Positions 27,491 to 59,376 of a stretch of DNA of 64,000 nucleotides are shown here, piece after piece. The DNA is taken from the NCBI RefSeq assembly GCF_032854445.1, contig NC_088299.1, forward strand, positions 8,222,324 through 8,286,323, given 5' to 3'. Within the stretch, counting starts at the first letter, position 1, and the number at the start of each line of letters is the position of its first letter. The stretch is from Liolophura sinensis. Lineage: Eukaryota > Mollusca > Polyplacophora > Chitonida > Chitonidae. Below the pieces are notes generated by a model. The model made no database searches. It worked only from the letters and a program-made list of their open reading frames with translations, and was not told the origin of the DNA. Made by a program: the position numbers and the translations under genes.

Positions 27491-27690
27491 ACATTGAAAC
27501 AGTGTTATATTCCCAGGCCCCCGTGGCCAAATCCAGAAATAGTGGCCACGAGTGATGATGAAACAGAAATAACATTAAAACAGTGTAATTTTCCCAGGCC
27601 CCCATGGCCAAATCCAGAAATAGTGGCCACACGTGATGATGAAACAGAAATAACATTGAAACAGTGTAATTTTCCTAGGCCCCCGTGGCC
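27491..27690. repeat. 81-bp minisatellite containing a SINE head
   Basis: Units start 'acattgaaacagtg' or 'acattaaaacagtg' at 27491, 27572 and 27653. Each contains 'ggcccccgtggccaaat', the 5' end of the SINE at 27677. The third unit runs into that SINE rather than completing. Confidence 0.85.
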
Positions 27691-27846
27691 AAATGGTTAG
27701 CGTGTTAGGGCAGCACAGTGACGCAGGAACCTCTCACAAATGGGGTCAATCTGCGGATGGATTTGGGATTTCCCACAGGTTCCTGGCCGCCATCTTATAT
27801 GTGAAATAATCTTGGGTATGGCATAAAGAACCAGTCAAATAAATGA
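27677..27846 (+). mobile_element. SINE with internal deletions
   Basis: It begins GGCCCCCGTGGCCAAATGGT (A-box side), loses the B-box region and part of the centre, and ends near 'ccagtcaaataaatgaa'. The head is shared with the neighbouring 81-bp repeat. Confidence 0.85.
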
Positions 27847-28000: not shown

Positions 28001-28250
28001 GATACACATTGCTTTCTTCACCAATTCATATTTCTGTGTCTGTTCTCTGAGACATATTGCTTTCTTCCTCAATTCATATCCCTATGTGTGTTTTCTGAGA
28101 CATATTGCTTTTTTCCCCAATTCATATCCCTGTGTGTGTTTTCTGAGACATATTGCTTTCTTCCCCAATTCGTATCCCTGTGTATGTTTTCTGAGACATA
28201 TTGCTTGCTTCCCCAATTTGTATCCGTGTGTGTATTTCCCCAGAGAGCAG
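28001..28250. repeat. 48-bp minisatellite, about five units
   Basis: 'gagacatattgct' recurs at 28049, 28097, 28145 and 28193, with partial units either side. Because 48 is divisible by three, long repetitive frames appear on both strands. They have no other sign of coding. Confidence 0.92.
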
Positions 28251-43510: not shown

Positions 43511-46500
43511 ATGAAAATGGCTTCGGGAAGTTCCAAGTCTAAACTGAAAGTGTCGCCATCAGAAATGGATTCCGTGACATGTTCAATATGTTTAGATATA
43601 TACGAGAAGCCGATGAAAATAGCTTGTGGTCACAGGTTGGTATCTTTTGCTCTAGGATGATAAATTATCCGTTTTCTCTTGTGACCCTTCTCGCCACGAA
43701 AACCAATGTATACAAAGGCCCTCGGAGATAACTAAATGAAATGTGCGCAGCTGCATGTGTGACCCTTTTGGCTTTCTTTGTGTGGTTGTCTGTTTTAAAT
43801 AAGTGTTGAACTTAAAGGACGTATCATCCTTTTATGGTCACACGTTGTTAGTTTATTTCCAGGCGAAATGAATATGCAACTGGTTTCATTATAATCCTAT
43901 AACAGTTTCATTATTTTTTTTTCCTTTGATTTTAATCTTGAAAATGAAAATCGTTGTGTTTATTTTGGCTGTAACGGATATAGGAGTCACACGATTGTCT
44001 TCTCATGTAAGCTGGTTGTCAAGTCAAGGTGGCAATGTATTAGAATTGTAATGATCAGTTGTTTCAGACTTGTCTCAAACCAATGAACAGAACTCTCATT
44101 CAGGCACTTTGTGAGAGTTACAGAGAAAAATATTCACATAGTGTGCGACAGTCCATATAAAAGTGCTAAGTTAGCTGGCCCAGTATCCCCTGTGTAAAAT
44201 TTGTTGATGACATGAAAGCCCAAAACTGACAGGAAATATGCATATGAGGGCGTCTATTAAGAGATATAAAATATGCCTTGACATTGAAATTTTTCTTTGT
44301 TTATTTCATTTTTTAGGCATAACCTTTTTTTCATTTCTTTTCAAGACATAATCCTCATTTTTGAGTTCCTTTTCATGCATCCCTTAACTTTCTGTGTACC
44401 TTTTTCTTACCTCTGCGCTGTAACAACATTCGTTTGTGTTTACTCATGAAAGATACATAGTCAGACTCGATCCGTTCTGCCTTACCACCCCATATAACAT
44501 GTTGAGGACCCTCATTGGCCAAGTATATAATGGCGTCAGTTGATGGTTCATTGACCCGTTAACTAATGAGGCATAATGTTTTGATTTGGCCAAAGACTAC
44601 CATTAAGCCATTAAGCTTGTTCACGATGTCTCTGACAAAGACCTATAGTTTCCTCTAGACCCTTTCTGGTTTCCTCCATACAAAATCCTGACTACTGTCT
44701 TACATGCATATAGGAATGGCCTAAGCATGAATCAGATGATAAATAGATATAACACAACAGCGAATTTAACGTAACACAAGTGAGATTAGTTTCGGTAAAA
44801 ACAAGATTACTATAAAGCACGCAGAATGTAGTTTTATGTTACAGCAACGATGACATAACAGAAAGCATGATATAAGCCTTCGAGACTCATTGAAATGTTG
44901 AGAGATGCATTCAGTGTTTTTCAGCATAAGTAGAATTTTCATTAGGGCAAGGGTTTTTAAATTACCTGTTACGTTTATTTTGGACTTTCCAAATAAGCTT
45001 CACAAAATTAAAATCTCTTTTAAGAATAGGCTTTCAACTAGGTGTAGCTTGTGCTGCAATTCCAAAACTTGTTATTAACAATTTTTGCGGAGGTCCCACC
45101 TAAACACAGCTTACTTCTAAAATGCATCTTTTGAACAGGACAGTGACCTCAAGGGAGGTAATTTGGTGAAGCCCTATTAAGATAGCTGGAATGGCCTGAA
45201 GGGATTATCTGCAGCACAGTTGCCCTAGATTTGGATCAGTTCATTTACAACTGAATGGGTTGGTTCGACAGATGTTGCAGTTTAGCTGCCGTTACTCACA
45301 CTAAATATAACCTTTCATTGAGGTGGATGTGAAATTTTCATAACAATGAACCACATGTGGTGTGTTTTAAAAGGCTGTGTTTTTGATGTTACTGAGTGTG
45401 TGCTTATTATAGACATTTAATAGAAATACATACAATGTAGCTGTTTTGACATTACAATAAAGTGTTTTTCTACGTGGTTTACAAATAGCATGAGAAAAGC
45501 ATAAATAAAATTGGTGGTGTTTGTTGTAATCACATGGTTTGGGGGGTATGTTGTAGTGTAAAAAGTAGGATGCAGAATTGCGAAAGCAAAAGTAATACAG
45601 AAGTAGCAAAAAATGTAGAGACTGGAAGTTTTGTTGAATATGGCACTGGGGTATATGCTGCATTGAGTTAATGCTTGTCTTTCGATCTCTACTAGGATGC
45701 TCAAAGTGTTGCAATAATCCCCCCGGCTTCCATAAGTGGTCTCAAGAAGTTTGCTGATCACTTGCACATTCCATGAAATAAACGTGCAATAAATATATAC
45801 ACCTTAAGATTGCTCTACGCGAAAAAAGTCGGGTGTGTGAAAGTTTGTGTTTTTACCAAAGCATGATGATTTACTCTGGATATTTAAAACTGATTTACCT
45901 CTGTGCAGGTAAGAAATTGCTATTGGACAATTCGTTTTTATCTCTCACCTTTATTAGGTTGTATTATAGTTTTATATACTGTATGTTTATATATATAGTA
46001 ATAGTGAGTTTAACGTTGCTCTGTATCTTTTGCAGATTTTGTGAACATTGTATAAAGCCGTATAGTTCGCTCTCTCAGCCACAGTGCCCGCTATGTCGTC
46101 AACTTTTTGACCCAAAGTCCACCCGGAAAGACAGTGATCTGAAGAAATTTATCAGTTCTAGCAAAGGACAGTGTACATGGTGTGGGAAAGAGGTACGTGC
46201 TGTGCCACCTGTTACAGGCTTCTGAAAGCTGTGTTCCCATGTTGTGAGAAGTGAAGTATGTTTTTTTTTTTTTTGTTTGATTGGTATTTATTGGCACCCT
46301 TGAGAAACATTCATTTTTTGGATGGCAATTTATTGGCAGAAGAAACCAGAGCGCCAGGAGTAAATTACTGCTCTTTTCCAGGTACTGGTACTTGAGAAAC
46401 TTCCTAAAGCAAAATTGGAAGTGGCTGGATTTGAACCTGCAACATCTTTGTCAGAAATTGATCAACTGCAGCGAAAATGCTTCAGACACTAAGACTAATG

Positions 46501-49500
46501 AGTCATAAAAGATTAACTTACACTGCAAGGGTTCTCACTAGTTATAAATGTAGTTCTGGTCTTGATTTAGTAAGTTGACATAATTAAAAAAATATACAGG
46601 TAGGCCCTACTCTAATTGTTCAACTTTTCCATCCACCAGTACAGCCAATATTTTGCAACATTCCGAGAGAAATATGGGGTGTAGTGAAATAATCTGCATA
46701 GAAAAAAATTATTTTTGGTGTAATTTTCATAATAATTGAATGCATAAATTTCAATGACGAAAGTGTTGCAGAGATTCAAGAGATGAAGACTTACAGTAAG
46801 TGAAAAAGTGCCGTATGTCTTGTCATACAGTACAAGTAGTTCTGCAGGGTATAATGTGAAAAAAAAAAATGATATTCGACTGGTTTTCTCACATCAGGAT
46901 GCATTACTTACTTTGAATTTAGTCATACATAGCTATGTTCCCGTAAAGAATAGATGCTCATATTATGTGCCATCTGAGACCCGATAAAAAGTAACATACA
47001 TTTAATGTCTCAATATATGATTAATGTCTGTTCATTTCTGTTCACCACTTCGTCTTCATTTTTACAGATGAGTCTGTCCAAACTTCGATCTCATTCATCG
47101 TCTTGTTCTAAAATGGACAAATCTGTTCCCCATTTTCAACCAGTGGCACACACAAGCCAGCCCATCCCAAAGTAAGTCTTCCATAAAGCTTCTTTTAAAT
47201 TTTGCATAAAAACATGTATCTGTTGAATCTGAGCTTTAGATGTGGTGTAATTTGAGGCACAGATGTTATGTGATGGCAAGGGATGTACCAAACCACTCCA
47301 CGTTTCAGTGCCCATACTGTGGCCTGACTTTTTGGTGTTGTTGCTTTTCAGCGATGTACCAAACCACTCCACGTTTCAGTGCCCATACTGTGGTCTGACT
47401 TTTTGGTGTTGTTGTTTTTCGGTGATGTACCAAACCACTCCACGTTTCAGTGCCCATACTGTGGTCTGACTTTTTGGTGTTGTTGCTTTTCAGCGATGTA
47501 CCAAACCACTCCACGTTTCAGTGCCCATACTGTGGTCTGACTTTTTGGTGTTGTTGTTTTTCAGCGATGTACCAAACCACTCCACGTTTCAGTGCCCATA
47601 CTGTGGTCTGACTTTTTGGTGTTGTTGTTTTTCAGTGATGTACCAAACCACTCCACGTTTCAGTGCCCATACTGTGGTCTGACTTTTTGGTGTTGTTGTT
47701 TTTCAGCGATGTACCAAACCACTCCACGTTTCAGTGCCCATACTGTGGTCTGACTTTTTGGTGTTGTTGTTTTTCAGCGATGTACCAAACCGCTCCACGT
47801 TTCAGTGCCCATACTGTGGTCTGAAGAACCTTGATACTCATGGCCTTGTAAAGCACTGTAATGAACAACATCAGAGTGGACCATCTCAACTTGTAAGCTT
47901 TTTTTATTAAATATCTACTTGCATATACATTGTACATCATATTGTACTAGATTATAAGGTAAGTTTTATTATTAAAATTTCCTCAAAGTTCGCCCATGAA
48001 TAAGTTGCACAGTTTACTTCATGTTGAGAGTGGTATTGATCTTAGAAAAGTGTTTGGAGATTTGTTTGGAAGGTAGGATGATGCCCTGCTGGAGTTTTAA
48101 GACCAAAAATAATCATTATGACATATTCTTGCTTGTAAAAAAGCTCTTTCTTAGCGCTTATTTTGGAGTTTGAACCAAAGACTTTTTGGCCTGTAATTGC
48201 CTTTCTAAAGCCAGATCGAAATGGTTATTCCCATGGGCTCTGTTTTTTTGATAGCCTGGTCATAATTTATGCGTGTTTTGCATCCATTTGTTGGGTGTAG
48301 CATATGCTTTTTAGTCATGCCAGTCTTACCCCATGTTCAAATTGAATTGTCTGAATCGAAAATTATTTGATGTCAGCTTACATGTACTTGAATGGTAATA
48401 AACTAGTCATACAGCGGTACTGTAATATGAAATGTTCTGTTGCTGAAGATCAAAGATTTGTCTGGCTCTGAAATTCATTAACATGCTGACACTATTTTTT
48501 TTTTCAATATTTTGTAATACACGTCCTATTTGTTTGGTGATCCGTCACCCTACAAAATGTACACTTAACATAGTATGTTAAAACTCTGAAACTCATTGGC
48601 ATGTTGAATTTGAATCTTTAATATATATCTGTATACATTTTAGGCTTTCAGACTTATCTCATTTGTTCAGTAAACAATTATCGTAATGTAAAATAGGGGC
48701 CTTGATACCAAAGCTAGAAATTTGTGCTTTATGTAAAGCTGTGAAACACATCAACATATTGGATTTGAAACCTTGATTTTTTGGTAATTTATTTTTGGCT
48801 TTTCAGACATGTCCAATTTGTTCAGCCATGCCTTGGGGTGACCCCAACAGGAAGAGCAGCAACTTTATACAACACCTAAATCTGAGACATAAATTTGAAT
48901 ATGATACATTTGTGGTGAGTAATTAAACCTATAAAATTTATTGAACTCTGTTGTCGTTAAAGGTAAAAACAGTTCTGCTGTAGCAAATGACTTGTGAAAA
49001 ATGTTAGGCAGCCTTTGTTGACGTTATTAATGTACCAATCACTTATCTCACCGTAGCTCAGAGGCACAAATGAAACCTTCTTCATTTAGAAAGTTCACAA
49101 ATGTTCAGCTCCTCATTTTTCTCCATTGTTGATGTACTGGTACATGTACTTTAAAAAGCTTTTCGTGAAACTTTTTCCAGACCCCCCATGTTATAATAAA
49201 TGTGGTCAATAATTAATAGTTGCTTAACATTTATGACGGGTTGTTGAAACACAGTAGGACATTTTTTTACCTTTAGCAAAAAAAAGCTCGAATTCGAAAT
49301 TCCCCTATTATAACCGTTTCATAATCAGGATAAACAGCCCTGGACCACGGTATACAGGTGTATTATGACTCATTAAAACGCTGCCTCTCCACGACTATCA
49401 GATCCTTGACAAATGAGGTTGCATGTTCAAATCCAGCACTTGCTGTATTGGCTGTGGCTTTAAGTTATTTATTTATTTGATTGGTGTTTTATGCCATACT

Positions 49501-50644
49501 CAAGAATATTTCACTTATACAAAGGTGGCCAGCATTATGGTGGGTGGAAACCAGGCAGAGCCCAGGGAAAACCCACAACCATCCACAGGCTGGTTAGCAC
49601 ACCAGCACGGCACAATAACCCAGGAGCCCCTTACCCCTTGCAGTGAGCTCATGCTGACTTCCTCTCCAGGCATACTTGAGAAGGTGTGCAGCAACCTGGG
49701 GATGGTCATGGGTATCCCCTGGGTTCTACCTCCTAACATAATGCTGGCCGCCTTCGTATAAGTATTCTTGAGTACGGTGCAAAACACCAATCAAATAAAT
49801 AAATAAATATTTTTTGTAAAACATCAGTGAATATAGCATTAAACAACAATGAAATAAATAAATCATACTTTTTATTTTTTATCACCACATACATATATAT
49901 ATATAGATGTCGGATGGGCATAAAAAAATGGGCCATAGTTTGATGCTGCATTGCTCCAGTATCCTTTGTTCAAACCCTTTCAAACTTTAGCTATTGAAAT
50001 GACATAATTTTGTTAATATACTGATCAATTTTCAAGGTCATAGCTTGAGTAGTCTGTACACAGGGTAGAATGAAAACTCAAAAACGCACATTCCGGTGAC
50101 CCACATTGCATCACCTGTCAGGTGTCATGAGTAGGGCACATGCTGCACCTGTGTGACACGCATCAAGGACTGCTGGGAAAAAAATTACTCTTAAGGAGAT
50201 TTGGGACTCAATCAGTTCATGGAAGAAACGTTTGCGCGCCGTCTACCAAGAAGATGGAGGACCAATTGATCACCTTTTCAAGTAAAACAAAGTAGCACAT
50301 TTTGAAATGTCAGGAATATGCGTTTTTGACTCTGTTTTGATTTTGGTCCCATGAACAGAAATCTTAAAGGACGAAATTGAAATTTGCTCTGTATTCTTAG
50401 GACATAATGGGTTTTGAGTGTGTAAATTTTTAGAAGCTGACGTAAGAGGGTTTCGGAGATATTGAATGTCAAAGTATGGCCCATTTTTTTTATGCCCACT
50501 CGATATATATGTTGGAAAAACTGCTGCTCTCAGCATTTAGCGCAAAACCATGTTTTTTTTTTTCACCGTTTGTTGTAGGACTTTGCTCAGGACGATGACA
50601 CAATGCTGCAGGCAGCATTACAGGCATCATTACAGGAATTGTAA
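43511..50644 (+). CDS. RING/zinc-finger/UIM E3 ubiquitin ligase, RNF114/RNF166 group
   Basis: Exons from the conserved start are 43511-43635, 46036-46192, 47068-47171, 47778-47892, 48807-48914 and 50579-50644, in phase, giving 224 residues, which suits a family of about 230. The product is expected to ubiquitinate substrates in the cytosol or nucleus. It contains a C3HC4 RING ([19 protein letters not shown] then FCEHCIKPY and CPLCR, residues about 24-65), a C2HC finger ([20 protein letters not shown]), two C2H2-type fingers ([20 protein letters not shown] and [13 protein letters not shown] to HLNLRH, then FEYDTFV) and a C-terminal ubiquitin-interacting motif ([16 protein letters not shown]). 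ATG codons at 43511 and 43517 are both possible; the exon is open upstream to 43397. A donor-like site at 50641 (GAATT|GTAAGT) with an acceptor at 51335 would change the last residues from EL to EFS. Which paralogue it is cannot be settled by eye. Confidence 0.92.
46270..46505 (-). mobile_element. Old SINE-like remnant in an RNF intron
   Basis: It begins on the left with 'tttgattggtatttattggc' like the SINE tail side, and on the right holds 'ggatttgaacctgcaacat', a reversed Pol III B box. It probably belongs to the longer SINE variant seen at 59593. Confidence 0.55.
47282..47825 (+). repeat. Tandem array of eight 71-bp units built from an exon start plus its 3' splice site
   Basis: 'gatgtaccaaac' starts at 47282, 47353, 47424, 47495, 47566, 47637, 47708 and 47779, exactly 71 bases apart. 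Each unit has 47 bases matching the start of the RNF exon at 47778, followed by 24 bases matching the end of the intron before it. The last unit is the real exon start. Six of the seven internal junctions end in CAG; the one at 47420-47422 reads CGG. Units differ by only a few bases. Confidence 0.97.
47970..48105. repeat. Repeat family A, copy in an RNF intron (reverse)
   Basis: Contains 'gttcgcccatgaataag', 'gatcttagaaaagtg' and 'gatttgtttggaaggtagga', colinear with the copy at 21657. The left terminus is eroded. Confidence 0.55.
49466..49589 (-). mobile_element. SINE fragment, left member of an inverted pair
   Basis: Tail half only, from 'tatttatttatttgattggt' to 'cccacaaccatccacagg', where it meets the next copy in opposite orientation. 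Confidence 0.88.
49590..49804 (+). mobile_element. SINE, right member of an inverted pair
   Basis: It starts in the head ('ctggttagcacaccagcac'), loses part of the B-box region ('gcagtgagctcatgctgac') and ends ACACCAATCAAATAAATAAA. Together with the copy on its left it forms a long interrupted inverted repeat in an RNF intron. Confidence 0.88.
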
Positions 50645-53950: not shown

Positions 53951-54960
53951 GTGTACTCAAACAGGTCAACGTTAGCCTACATTAACGTCAGAAGCAATAA
54001 GGCTTTCTTTAGTTCTTCTCTTTATAAAGGTTACCACACATGGGATGTTACATTATTTATTGAATTACTTGAATTTCTCATTAATAACATCTATGTGAAA
54101 TTCGAGGATACCATTTATTTATTTATTTATTTGATTGGTGTTTTACGCCGTACTCAAGAATATTTCACTTATACGACGGCGGTCGGAGAGGAAGCCAGCA
54201 TGAGCTGGACTTGAACTCACAGCGACCGCATTGGTGAGAGACTCCTGGGTCACTACGCTGCGCTATTGTGCTAACCAACTGAGGATACCATACCGGGATA
54301 CCATTTACCAACAGTGCATAGATATTCCATTGGGTACCAATTGTGCTCCTCATTTGGTAGACCTATTCCTGTTTTCATATGAATACGACTTTATGCAGAA
54401 ATTACTTAAAAGTAATATCTTTAAAGCTCGATCCTTTTCATTTACCAAGCGGTATAATGATGATCTACTGGCGTTAAATAACACCCATATTGCTGAAGCG
54501 GTGAAGGAAATCTATCCGCCTTCATTGGATTTAAAGGAGACGACAGATAGTCCTGATGGTACATCTTACAGATCTATATTTGTACAAAGACGACCAAGGT
54601 CTCCTTTCACGCCGCCTTTAGGACAAAAGAGAAAATTTCGATTTTGATATTGTAAATTATCCTTATTTGGATAGCAATATACCAAAGGGTCCCGCAAACA
54701 TATCTCACCTTGTAGCATTTGTCAGATCTTGCGTTAATTGTGATGACTTTAATCTGCGTCACAAGTTGCTAGTTCAAAAACTAGTTTGTCAAGGATACTC
54801 CACCAAACGCCTTCATTCTAAGTTTCTCAAATTTTACAATGAGTATAACATTCTCGTTGGCAGGTATGGACAGAGCGTTCAGAATCTGGCGATCTGCATT
54901 GTGATCAACCACATAGACGGCGCTATTATCACTATGTACATAGCTTTTATACAGACCAGT
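53951..54960 (+). pseudogene. Reverse transcriptase fragment, broken, interrupted by a SINE
   Basis: The frame before the SINE (WDVTLFIELLEFLINNIYVKFED) continues after it (TIYQQCIDIPLGTNCAPHL, DLFLFSYEYDF, FTKRYNDDLLALNN, IYPPSLDLKETT). It then shifts frame before DKRENFDFDIVNYPYLDSNIP and ends around KFYNEYNILVGRYGQSV. IPLGTNCAP and the Y-x-D-D box are reverse transcriptase motifs. The wider set (F-x-Y-x-D-D plus LYDKR and NFP-like stretches) resembles retroelement proteins common in marine invertebrates and fish. The class, perhaps Penelope-like, is not certain. A frameshift lies between about 54575 and 54625, and both ends of the element are missing, so it is dead. Confidence 0.8.
54115..54280 (-). 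mobile_element. SINE with large internal deletion and 11-bp target duplication, inside the RT fragment
   Basis: Tail and head are intact but the centre is lost at 'cggcggtcggagagg'. GAGGATACCAT flanks it at 54104-54114 and 54281-54291. Just after the right duplication, 'accgggataccat' repeats part of it again. Confidence 0.93.
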
Positions 54961-55900
54961 ATGTCATGTGTAACATCATAGATGGCGCCTCTTGTATTAT
55001 CAGATCTTTACATATTAACGGGAGATACGTAATCGTCCGTTACTTTTGAATCACAATCTATTCGGTTAAGGCCGTAAAGGTAGCCATGCTCATTACATCT
55101 GCATGATGCTTTTATGAACAGTTGCAATCAAAGCGCGACTGAGATACTTGTTATTTGACCTGGTACTCATTCATGGACCACGAATTTGAACGTTCATCTC
55201 CATGCAGTAAGTTTAGTAACAGATGTGTAAGGTATGAACTCGTCTTTAGTGATAGCCAAATAATGTTGGCTGTGTGCTTAGACCGTTGGGGATTTCGATC
55301 TGTCAACAATTTTCCCACCATACAACGGGCATATTCGTATTTGACAGGGTGTTGTTTTGTTTTGTTTTTTTTTTTAACCCAGATTTTTATTTTAATGACG
55401 AGCTCGTAAAATTCCTTTGCGCCTTACACAATGCTATGTACTATTTTGTTCTATCCTGTAGTACAGGTCGAGTTGTTACGTCGTTCCTAACAACTATTCA
55501 GTCATATGGTGACAAGGAATTATTACAGGTGTGTGTGTGCAAATGAGCCTTTTAATTATTTTGTCTACTTATGGCGAATCCATGCCGCCAAAGAGCTGCC
55601 GTCACTGAAGTATCATGACGTAGACACCAGACATGACACCACACCCAGTCACTTCATATAGGCCTACTGACACCGGGCCAACCAGTTCTGTGCGGAGAGC
55701 CAGGCTGGACAGCAACGAGTACATGAAGGCCTACCATTCTTCGCCAGGGTTGGATCCCAGGTCTCCCAAGTTCGGGACGGACGCTCCCACCATTAGCACC
55801 GCAGCGGTCCTCTCCTTTGATCCGTCACATCTTTAAGTGTATGTGTGGTTACAAAACACTGATGCAGCACAAGAACATTCCAGTGTTACAGCAGAAATCG
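54961..55900. other. Spacer without recognised features
   Basis: Several short frames are present, none with a recognisable domain. The sequence has 'taggccta' motifs, which are frequent from here to the right edge. Confidence 0.4.
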
Positions 55901-56477: not shown

Positions 56478-58617
56478 ATGGCGCCCATCTGGTCCGCCCC
56501 TTCTCAATCACGACGCAACCGAATCCAGCAGGATGTAATCATCGCTGTTGGGGCCTTTGTGATAGCAAGGAAGAGACGTTCTAGACGAAGGCGAAGATGG
56601 GCAGTTCATCCTATTTTCAAGAGACGGAAGGAACAAGGAGCATATCACAACCTGGTACAGGAGCTGGGATTAGACGAAGATATGTTTCAACGCTACTTTC
56701 GATTCAGACGTGAACAATTTGCCCAGCTCTTGTTCGTACTACGTGGGGATCTTGTCAAGTTCCATCGATCGACAGAAGTCCTTTGTCCAAGACAACGTTT
56801 GGCAATTTGCATAAGGTAATAAATAAACGCAAATAGGACTTTTCAATACTTGTAATTGTTTTACTGGAATGATAGAAACCAAATATTGACGTAAGATAGG
56901 TGCAAATGACTTAACTTTTTGACTTCACAATATTATGCCGTTAACTGAAAATAGTTTTTGTCCAAGGCATGGCTTACAGGTAACAATGAAAACAATTAAA
57001 ATCACAGCAAAGTAATCAGAAACCCTTCTTGATTTAGATTCGCAACGCGACAAGAGATTACTGTATGCGAAGTTGTTCTGTTCTGCACAGCTACTATTGA
57101 AAAGTCATGTGCATAGCCGCAGAAAGCAGGTCGGACGTTGCTCCAGAACACTCGTTTTGGCTCCGTATCCCTGTGTCCTCGTAGTGGGTAGATATCGGCG
57201 GCAGGTGCTTGTTAGCATATTGAACATTTGGAGCAAAAGGAGCAAGTTCATTTCGCGGTGGTAGAGGCGTTAGGCGAATCTGTATTCCACTCTGATTTTC
57301 TGCGTTAAATAAGACTTGTGACAATTGGACCTTAATAAATGCTTGTGTTTCCTTTGGTAGTTTCTTCATACGCTTGGCATAACTCGCGAATAGCAGCTCA
57401 TCGGGATTAGTTTAGGTATTTCCTTGAAGTTCTTCATGATTCTTCATGCTTTCATTAATGAAATCAGTCAGAGCTGCTTCAATTGAAGAAGTGTCCTCTG
57501 CTAAGTGTCGTTTTCCACTTCTCTTTGGAGCTTTACCGACTCTTCCAGTAGATGTGCTTGGGGTAGGCGAAACTGATGAAGCTGCTGTTTCCAGTGGCAG
57601 AGATTCACTAAAGGAGCTAACTTCAGACCTATGAAAAAAAGAATGTAGTCAATCTACTTATAACTATGCTATTTTTGCAGGTACCTGGCAACCGGGGAAT
57701 CATATGCATCGCTCGCCTTCAGCTATCGCGTCGGTGTCTCTACAATATCTAAGTTGGTACCAGAAGTATGCGATGCTATTTGGAAACAAAGAGATGTTGC
57801 GATGAATGTACCCAGCACCAGCGACGACTGGAGATTGATAGTAGCTAACTTTTGGGAGAATTGGCAATTCCCACACTGCTTAGGTGCACTAGATGGGAAA
57901 CATGTGGTTATGATGAAGCCTTGGAAATCGGGGTCTTTATATTTTAATTATAAAGGGACTTGTTCTATCGTTCTAATGGCCCTTGTTGATGCTAACCTTA
58001 AGTTCATTGCAATTAATACCGGTTCGTTGGGTAGAAATAGCGACGGAGGAATCTTTGCCCGAAGTAACATGTGACAACGTTTCGCTAATGGGACATTCAA
58101 TTTTCCATCTAGCTCAGTGATACCGGGTTTTGAAAGTCTTGGTCCTTTACCATATGTTGCGGTGGGAGATGAGGCGTTCCCTCTACTTCCAAACTTAATG
58201 CGCCCTTTCCCTGGTAAAGATAACTCTTTGGAAAAGCAAATATTCAACTATAGACTAAGTCGAGCTCGTAGAATAGTGGAAAATGCATTTGGTATTTTGG
58301 CCGCTCGATGGAGGGTATTTCACATGAAAATCGCCCTGCACCCATCCCATGCCAATTCCGTCGTCAAAGCTGCATGTGTACTGCATAACATGTTGCAGAG
58401 GACAAGTAATCCAGCCCAATTGACTCAGCTGATGGAAGAAATGGCAGACATGGACGCCGTCGATAGCCTCGCTCCTTTGTCACGTATGGGAAACAGGGCC
58501 AGTGAAGAAGCAATTTCTGTTCGTAATACCTTCAAGGATTTCTTCATGAGAGACAAATCGCTTCCATGGCAGAGACAACACGTGTTGAGAGGTTCTTTTG
58601 ATGCTGATAACAATTGA
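56478..58617 (+). pseudogene. Harbinger (HARBI1-type) DDE transposase with one nonsense codon
   Basis: Exon 1 is 56478-56815 and exon 2 is 57681-58617, joined IR|YLATGESYASLAFSYRVGVS in phase. Exon 1 starts MAPIWSAPSQSRRNR and contains a basic stretch (RKRRSRRRRRWAVHPI). Exon 2 has the DDE_Tnp_4 catalytic motifs: the first Asp in GALDGKH, the second in ALVDANLKF and the Glu in RIVENAFGILAARW. It ends in RGSFDADNN. The enzyme would cut and join the element's ends. An in-frame TGA at 58072-58074 follows RSNM, and the frame continues unchanged after it. No other lesion is seen, so the inactivation looks recent. Confidence 0.92.
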
Positions 58618-59376
58618 TGATACGTACCTGTTATCTTCATTAACACTCTGTGTACCAGCGCACGAATCGTTGTCGTCCGTTTCTTCAATATCAGGAACAT
58701 TAGTGTCGGCCCTGGAAAGAAACAAAGAATGGTATGTTGTCGTTTCAAATGATTTTCTTTTAGAAAGAACCTTGCAGTATTGCAGACTCGAACACAAACA
58801 CTGATATAAACAAGACTTGTTGGGTCCTGAAAGTGCATGCATCTCTTGCTTGGTTCAGAAACAGCAACACTTCTTCCTGCCAAAGTACATTGTGTTATTC
58901 ATTTGTAAGTATAGGCCTAGACAATGACCAAGTTGTTTTATTTGTGAACATACTCATTTTTAGCTATGTCTGGTTCCAGAAACGACAGATAATAACAATT
59001 GATGATACGTACCTGTTATCTTCATTAACACTCTGTGTACCAGCGCACGAATCGTTGTCGTCCGTTTCTTCAATATCAGGAACATTAGTGTCGGCCCTGG
59101 AAAGAAACAAAGAATGGTATGTTGTCGTTTCAAATGATTTTCTTTTAGAAAGAACCTTGCAGTATTGCAGACTCGAACACAAACACTGATATAAACAAGA
59201 CTTGTTGGGTCCTGAAAGTGCATGCATCTCTTGCTTGGTTCAGAAACAGCAACACTTCTTCCTGCCAAAGTACATTGTGTTATTCATTTGTAAGTATAGG
59301 CCTAGACAATGACCAAGTTGTTTTATTTGTGAACATACTCATTTTTAGCTATGTCTGGTTCCAGAAACGACAGAAT
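58607..59376. repeat. Tandem duplication of 385 bp inside the Harbinger element
   Basis: 58607-58991 and 58992-59376 look identical by eye. The unit contains a whole exon of the minus-strand gene and the end of the exon before it. Confidence 0.95.

Follow-up and report, generated by a model that had tools for sequence, protein, structure and literature searches.

A mirage-type minisatellite carrying copies of a 3' splice site ahead of a zinc-finger exon of a RING-finger gene in the chiton Liolophura sinensis

In amphioxus, minisatellite-like tandem duplications of intron/exon boundaries, in which the splice signals are copied along with the boundary, have been described under the name of mirages (PMC3087553, PMC3902484). 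Cases named in these two papers include Adh, troponin C, the globin genes BflGb6 and BflGb9, and PGBD5, with Adh and troponin C being given as further mirage cases by the PGBD5 paper (PMC3902484). According to the same papers, the Adh units measure 10-72 bp, the BflGb6 mirage repeats an intron's 3' end together with the 5' portion of the exon after it and leaves its edge copies out of homogenisation, and regular splicing is reported for the amphioxus mirages (PMC3087553, PMC3902484). The PGBD5 case is based on a gene model that mRNA does not support across the repeats (PMC3902484).

Two other systems show part of the same pattern. In the potato RdRp gene, an intron end (branch site, tract, and AG) was duplicated together with an exon start; this was one duplication, with a GTAAG donor, and it yielded a real new intron (PMC4974935). 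In the human genome, variable minisatellites at exon-intron boundaries, found between recent paralogues from segmental duplications and with units of ~30 bp on average, are able to alter splicing (PMC2812944). In that study, 66% of the intron changes were also accompanied by a transcript that retains the repeat in an exon, and boundary arrays are therefore not always silent (PMC2812944).

Here, we analyzed a 64,000-nucleotide stretch of the genome of L. sinensis (hereafter, the window; all positions are counted within it unless stated otherwise), a species whose genome was published as that of Liolophura japonica and then corrected to Liolophura sinensis (PMC12441733). The array that we found in it is a new mirage, in a mollusc, of a kind already described in amphioxus. 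As in the amphioxus cases, the tandemly repeated unit spans an intron/exon boundary, joining 24 nt of intron end to 47 nt of exon start, and it copies the splice signals; its length of 71 bp, with 97% matches between copies, lies beside the 10-72 bp of Adh, and the parts that it copies are those copied in BflGb6 (PMC3087553, PMC3902484). Unlike those mirages, the array belongs to Mollusca and to a RING-finger gene. It shares with the potato gene the duplicated intron end and exon start and differs from it in the number of extra units, seven, and in lacking a donor of that kind (PMC4974935). No mollusc mirage was recognised among the literature matches listed, judged by titles and abstract openings, which is not proof of absence.

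The host gene and its array

The host gene lies on the forward strand and consists of six coding exons, which together form an open frame of 222 codons; all five introns have GT/AG ends. The coding part of exon 1, counted from the start codon (43517-43635), encodes the first half of a RING finger, and exon 2 (46036-46192) encodes the remainder of the RING finger and the start of a C2HC finger. Exon 3 (47068-47171) is followed by the donor AAA/GTAAGT at 47172. Exon 4 (47778-47892, 115 nt) opens a Di19-type zinc-binding region, the remainder of which is encoded by exon 5 (48807-48914), while the coding part of the predicted exon 6 (50579-50644), located from its acceptor and from where it falls in the protein, supplies the C-terminal 21 codons and the stop. 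A Pfam search with the first 201 residues of the protein returned zf-Di19 (62.0 bits), zf-C3HC4_2 (37.7), and zf_C2HC_14 (29.6), all over their curated cut-offs, and the best solved structural relative of the protein is RNF125. The protein has the RING, C2HC, and Di19-type fingers of RNF114/RNF166-like RING E3 ligases, and we take it to be a ubiquitin ligase resembling RNF166/RNF114. A protein search for a paralogue of exons 3-5 gave four matches, three of which are this gene's own exons; the fourth is a weak relative of part of exon 5 on contig C6 (47% identity, E 3.8e-4).

Immediately ahead of exon 4, Tandem Repeats Finder identified an array at 47282-47824 on the forward strand, with a period of 71, 7.6 copies, 97% matches, 0% indels, and a score of 1037, that is, seven units of 71 bp and a 46-bp partial one. 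Together with an alignment of the units, this confirms what a sequence-only reading of the window had proposed, namely seven extra 71-bp units before the RNF exon at 47778, each made of 47 bases of exon start (47778-47824) and 24 bases of intron end. The array opens and closes with an exon piece, such that it is composed of eight exon pieces, the last of which is part of the real exon, and seven intron pieces. The near-identity claimed for the units also stands: the seven full units differ pairwise at 0-4 of 71 bases (mean 1.52, or 2.1%), and units 4, 6, and 7 are identical.

This arrangement creates seven acceptor positions (six upstream and the real one), of which six read CAG and one reads CGG. 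Five upstream AGs are found at 47350-47351, 47492-47493, 47563-47564, 47634-47635, and 47705-47706; their use would move the start of exon 4 to 47352, 47494, 47565, 47636, and 47707, adding 426, 284, 213, 142, and 71 nt, respectively. The mutated CGG position (47421-47422) precedes a would-be exon start at 47423, and the real acceptor AG is at 47776-47777; of the seven positions, this one alone yields the full protein. CTGAC occurs at all seven positions, with a spacing of 24 nt from its A to the final base of the AG position, and pyrimidines occupy 12 of the 17 bases from -20 to -4 at each of them. The earlier count of six intact acceptors and one CGG, each with CTGAC, is thus correct provided that the real site is included, and the description of complete 3' splice modules ahead of a zinc-finger exon of a RING gene is supported. 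The six CAG acceptors have the same branch motif and AG, and their tracts and the following 46 nt are alike save for single bases; what distinguishes them is their position and the exon context past those 46 nt.

A DNA search of the whole assembly (609,464,459 bases in 632 contigs, slightly less than the 609,495,693 bases given in the genome report; PMC11068029) placed the array at a single location and found no second copy of it; this search skips very common words, and some stretches of the assembly read N. The human boundary repeats lie between recent paralogues, in contrast to this single genomic match (PMC2812944).

Upstream acceptors and competing readings of the array

Translation of the predicted splice products gave 165 aa for all five upstream CAG acceptors, with differences among the five confined to single residues in their tails. 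In all five, the premature stop is the same, namely the TGA of the TCTGA that lies in the second exon piece downstream of the acceptor. The sequence-only reading had expected a frame shift and an early stop at any upstream acceptor, given that 71 is not a multiple of three. The stop was borne out for all five, whereas the frame-shift argument applies to three of them: for acceptors 47352 (+426 nt) and 47565 (+213 nt) the added length is divisible by three, so that the overall frame is kept, and the same stop is met nonetheless. From this stop to the exon 4/5 junction there are 68, 139, 210, 281, and 423 nt for acceptors 47707, 47636, 47565, 47494, and 47352, respectively. The rule for nonsense-mediated decay (NMD) is a stop more than 50-55 nt before an exon junction. 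Since all of these distances exceed that range, the transcripts from the five upstream CAG acceptors are predicted to be subject to NMD.

We put the probability at roughly three in four that this is a mirage-type array sitting on a functional RNF166/RNF114-like gene, close to neutral, with the last acceptor serving the protein. A tandem duplication straddling the junction of intron 3 with exon 4 would have founded a minisatellite within the putative ubiquitin-ligase gene, and its expansion would have produced the seven extra units. The last acceptor would be used by enough transcripts to keep the gene working, while transcripts from upstream acceptors would undergo NMD or yield the 165-aa protein, which would lack the C-terminal end and the Di19-type zinc fingers. 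The array itself would then be close to neutral, young, and variable in length between individuals. The 222-codon frame is open only via the last acceptor (exon start 47778), and the intact gene and the amphioxus precedent suggest that this acceptor is most likely the one that makes the protein and that the array is most likely tolerated rather than useful.

Several features argue in the opposite direction. In branch motif, tract, and AG, the upstream modules are on a par with the real one, which is evidence against a preference for the last acceptor. In addition, intron 3 would be short if the array were taken out (110 nt and the intron piece of 24 nt), which favours intron definition and could thereby favour the first acceptors. 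The donor of the real exon 4 matches the consensus at 6 of 9 positions in a simple match and is the weakest of the gene's five donors (7-8 for the others); this would count against the near-neutral reading. The abrupt left edge of the array, which a plain tandem duplication does not account for, would likewise count against the preferred explanation. So would the human survey, in which tandem repeats at exon-intron boundaries frequently changed splicing (PMC2812944), and the limited mRNA support behind the PGBD5 mirage (PMC3902484).

The equality of the modules also bears on dose control, an unlikely alternative in which the upstream acceptors would take a large share of the splicing, NMD would destroy the products, and the number of units would set the amount of ubiquitin ligase. 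Five upstream CAG acceptors carry modules as good as the real one, one stop is common to all of them, and transcription passes five of the six CAG acceptors before it reaches the productive one. The shared stop, however, is no sign of design, because random 71-mers nearly always give one: with inserted sequences of one or two random units, all 20,000 of 20,000 trials each met a stop ahead of the exon 4/5 junction, and with three units 87% did so, making a stop nearly unavoidable for a 71-bp insertion. Moreover, the amphioxus mirages are reported to splice normally (PMC3087553, PMC3902484), although the RT-PCR reports on them cannot see transcripts lost to NMD. We therefore regard throttling of the gene through NMD as unlikely. 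The more specific idea of a heritable, length-variable brake, in which the row of acceptors would divert into NMD a share of transcripts set by the unit number, is in our estimation quite improbable.

An assembly artefact, either a wrong number of units or a misassembled array, is very unlikely. The HiFi reads have a mean length of 8,347 bp, much more than the 543 bp of the array, and their coverage is 14x (PMC11068029). The array has a single place in the assembly, which offers no second haplotype for comparison; on the other hand, individual units are marked by differences of their own, one CGG and one GGCC among them.

Least probable of all is intron gain under way in the manner of potato RdRp, whereby an upstream acceptor would be used, a donor in an exon piece would be spliced to the next unit, and the excess would be removed as a new intron: the topology is alike, with intron end and exon start in tandem, but the potato case possessed its GTAAG donor (PMC4974935), whereas no usable donor was found within the duplicated exon piece, the best GT inside the array matching the donor consensus at 5/9 against 6-8/9 for the gene's five donors.

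Origin and age

The junction between units reads TCTGA in six of the seven units and CCTGA in the first, and the presence of TCTGA there is compatible with microhomology. At its left edge, the array begins with an exon piece that lacks its intron piece. The bases before this first exon piece are GGCAAGG, pyrimidines make up only 7 of 17, and a search for YTNAY in the 40 nt before it found no match. Intron 3 upstream of the array resembled the unit no better than shuffled sequences did (415 of 500 shuffles scored at least as high), and its best local match, which includes TCTGA (TCTGAGCTTT), is at chance level. The side running from exon 4 into intron 4 was also no better than shuffles (383 of 500). 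Given a left edge without an intron piece and without likeness to the adjoining intron, the first event was not a plain tandem duplication; our guess is a template switch in which the first intron piece was lost.

The sequence-only reading had placed the slippage point at the shared TCTGA. This agrees with the junction in six units, and it does not extend to the CCTGA of the first or to the left edge, which is not a simple slippage product. Plain slippage at TCTGA as the whole origin was rejected, as the left edge starts in an exon piece and the upstream intron has only shuffle-level likeness to the unit.

The real exon has CGC (Arg) at a codon that reads CAC (His) in every one of the seven upstream exon pieces, and the first copy has a private base. 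Either the extra units therefore descend from a single founder copy, or selection has held only the real exon; the difference looks as if selection at the protein level acted on the real exon alone. Weaker homogenisation at the edges, as in the globin mirages, cannot be claimed, because the first and second units are equally divergent (a mean of 2.33 differences for both), and the one base at which the real exon differs from all seven copies could also be due to coding selection. The divergence of 2.1% between units, set against a genome heterozygosity of 1.24% (PMC11068029), would point to a young array.

Repeats in the genome and what the array may mean

In eleven random 10-kb pieces of the genome (110 kb), we found 24 arrays with a period of at least 25. 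They cover 6,919 of 100,000 bases (~7%) in the ten samples that remain when one satellite-filled piece is set aside and 16,919 of 110,000 bases when it is included. That arbitrary 10-kb piece (L016; G000:C4:8000000-8009999) is filled by a satellite with a period of 391 and 25.8 copies. Since minisatellites are dense in this genome, an array straddling an acceptor needs no special cause, and the overlap is not surprising. Of the arrays that do harm a gene, most should be lost to selection.

The window holds further repeats. Two minisatellites lie close to each other at 27491-27694 (81 bp x 2.5), which by eye seems open in one frame, and at 28004-28237 (48 bp x 4.9), which ends near TTTCCCCAG. 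A two-copy tandem repeat of 385 bp at 58607-59374, with zero mismatches over the 383 bases compared, contains an 84-nt exon-like stretch on the minus strand, flanked by AG and GT (59096-59013 and 58711-58628); its length is a multiple of three, and the repeat is possibly a very recent duplication of a whole exon. Frames at 54204-54981 bear a resemblance, by eye, to a Penelope-kind reverse transcriptase; a Pfam search with two pieces of this region gave no match at E 0.1.

Elsewhere in the assembly, COX1 occurs seven times on contig C99 at steps of ~15.5 kb and once on contig C632 (8 matches), and the mitochondrial genome seems to have been assembled as a head-to-tail concatemer. The order of the mitochondrial protein genes, set beside the ancestral mollusc order, fits a mollusc, and a lancelet source for the window, entertained in view of the mirage literature, was rejected on this ground. 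A piece of a mitochondrial contig (L006:4452-4859) has a long TA-rich tract beside cox3, with Met-Tyr runs in several frames. A tRNA search on the mitochondrial pieces under the bacterial code found none.

If the array did act as a brake, a fast-mutating minisatellite would give different individuals different doses of a ubiquitin ligase. The array is also a natural competition experiment among six near-identical CAG acceptors. As a mirage-type array in a mollusc, it suggests that the phenomenon may reach beyond lancelets.
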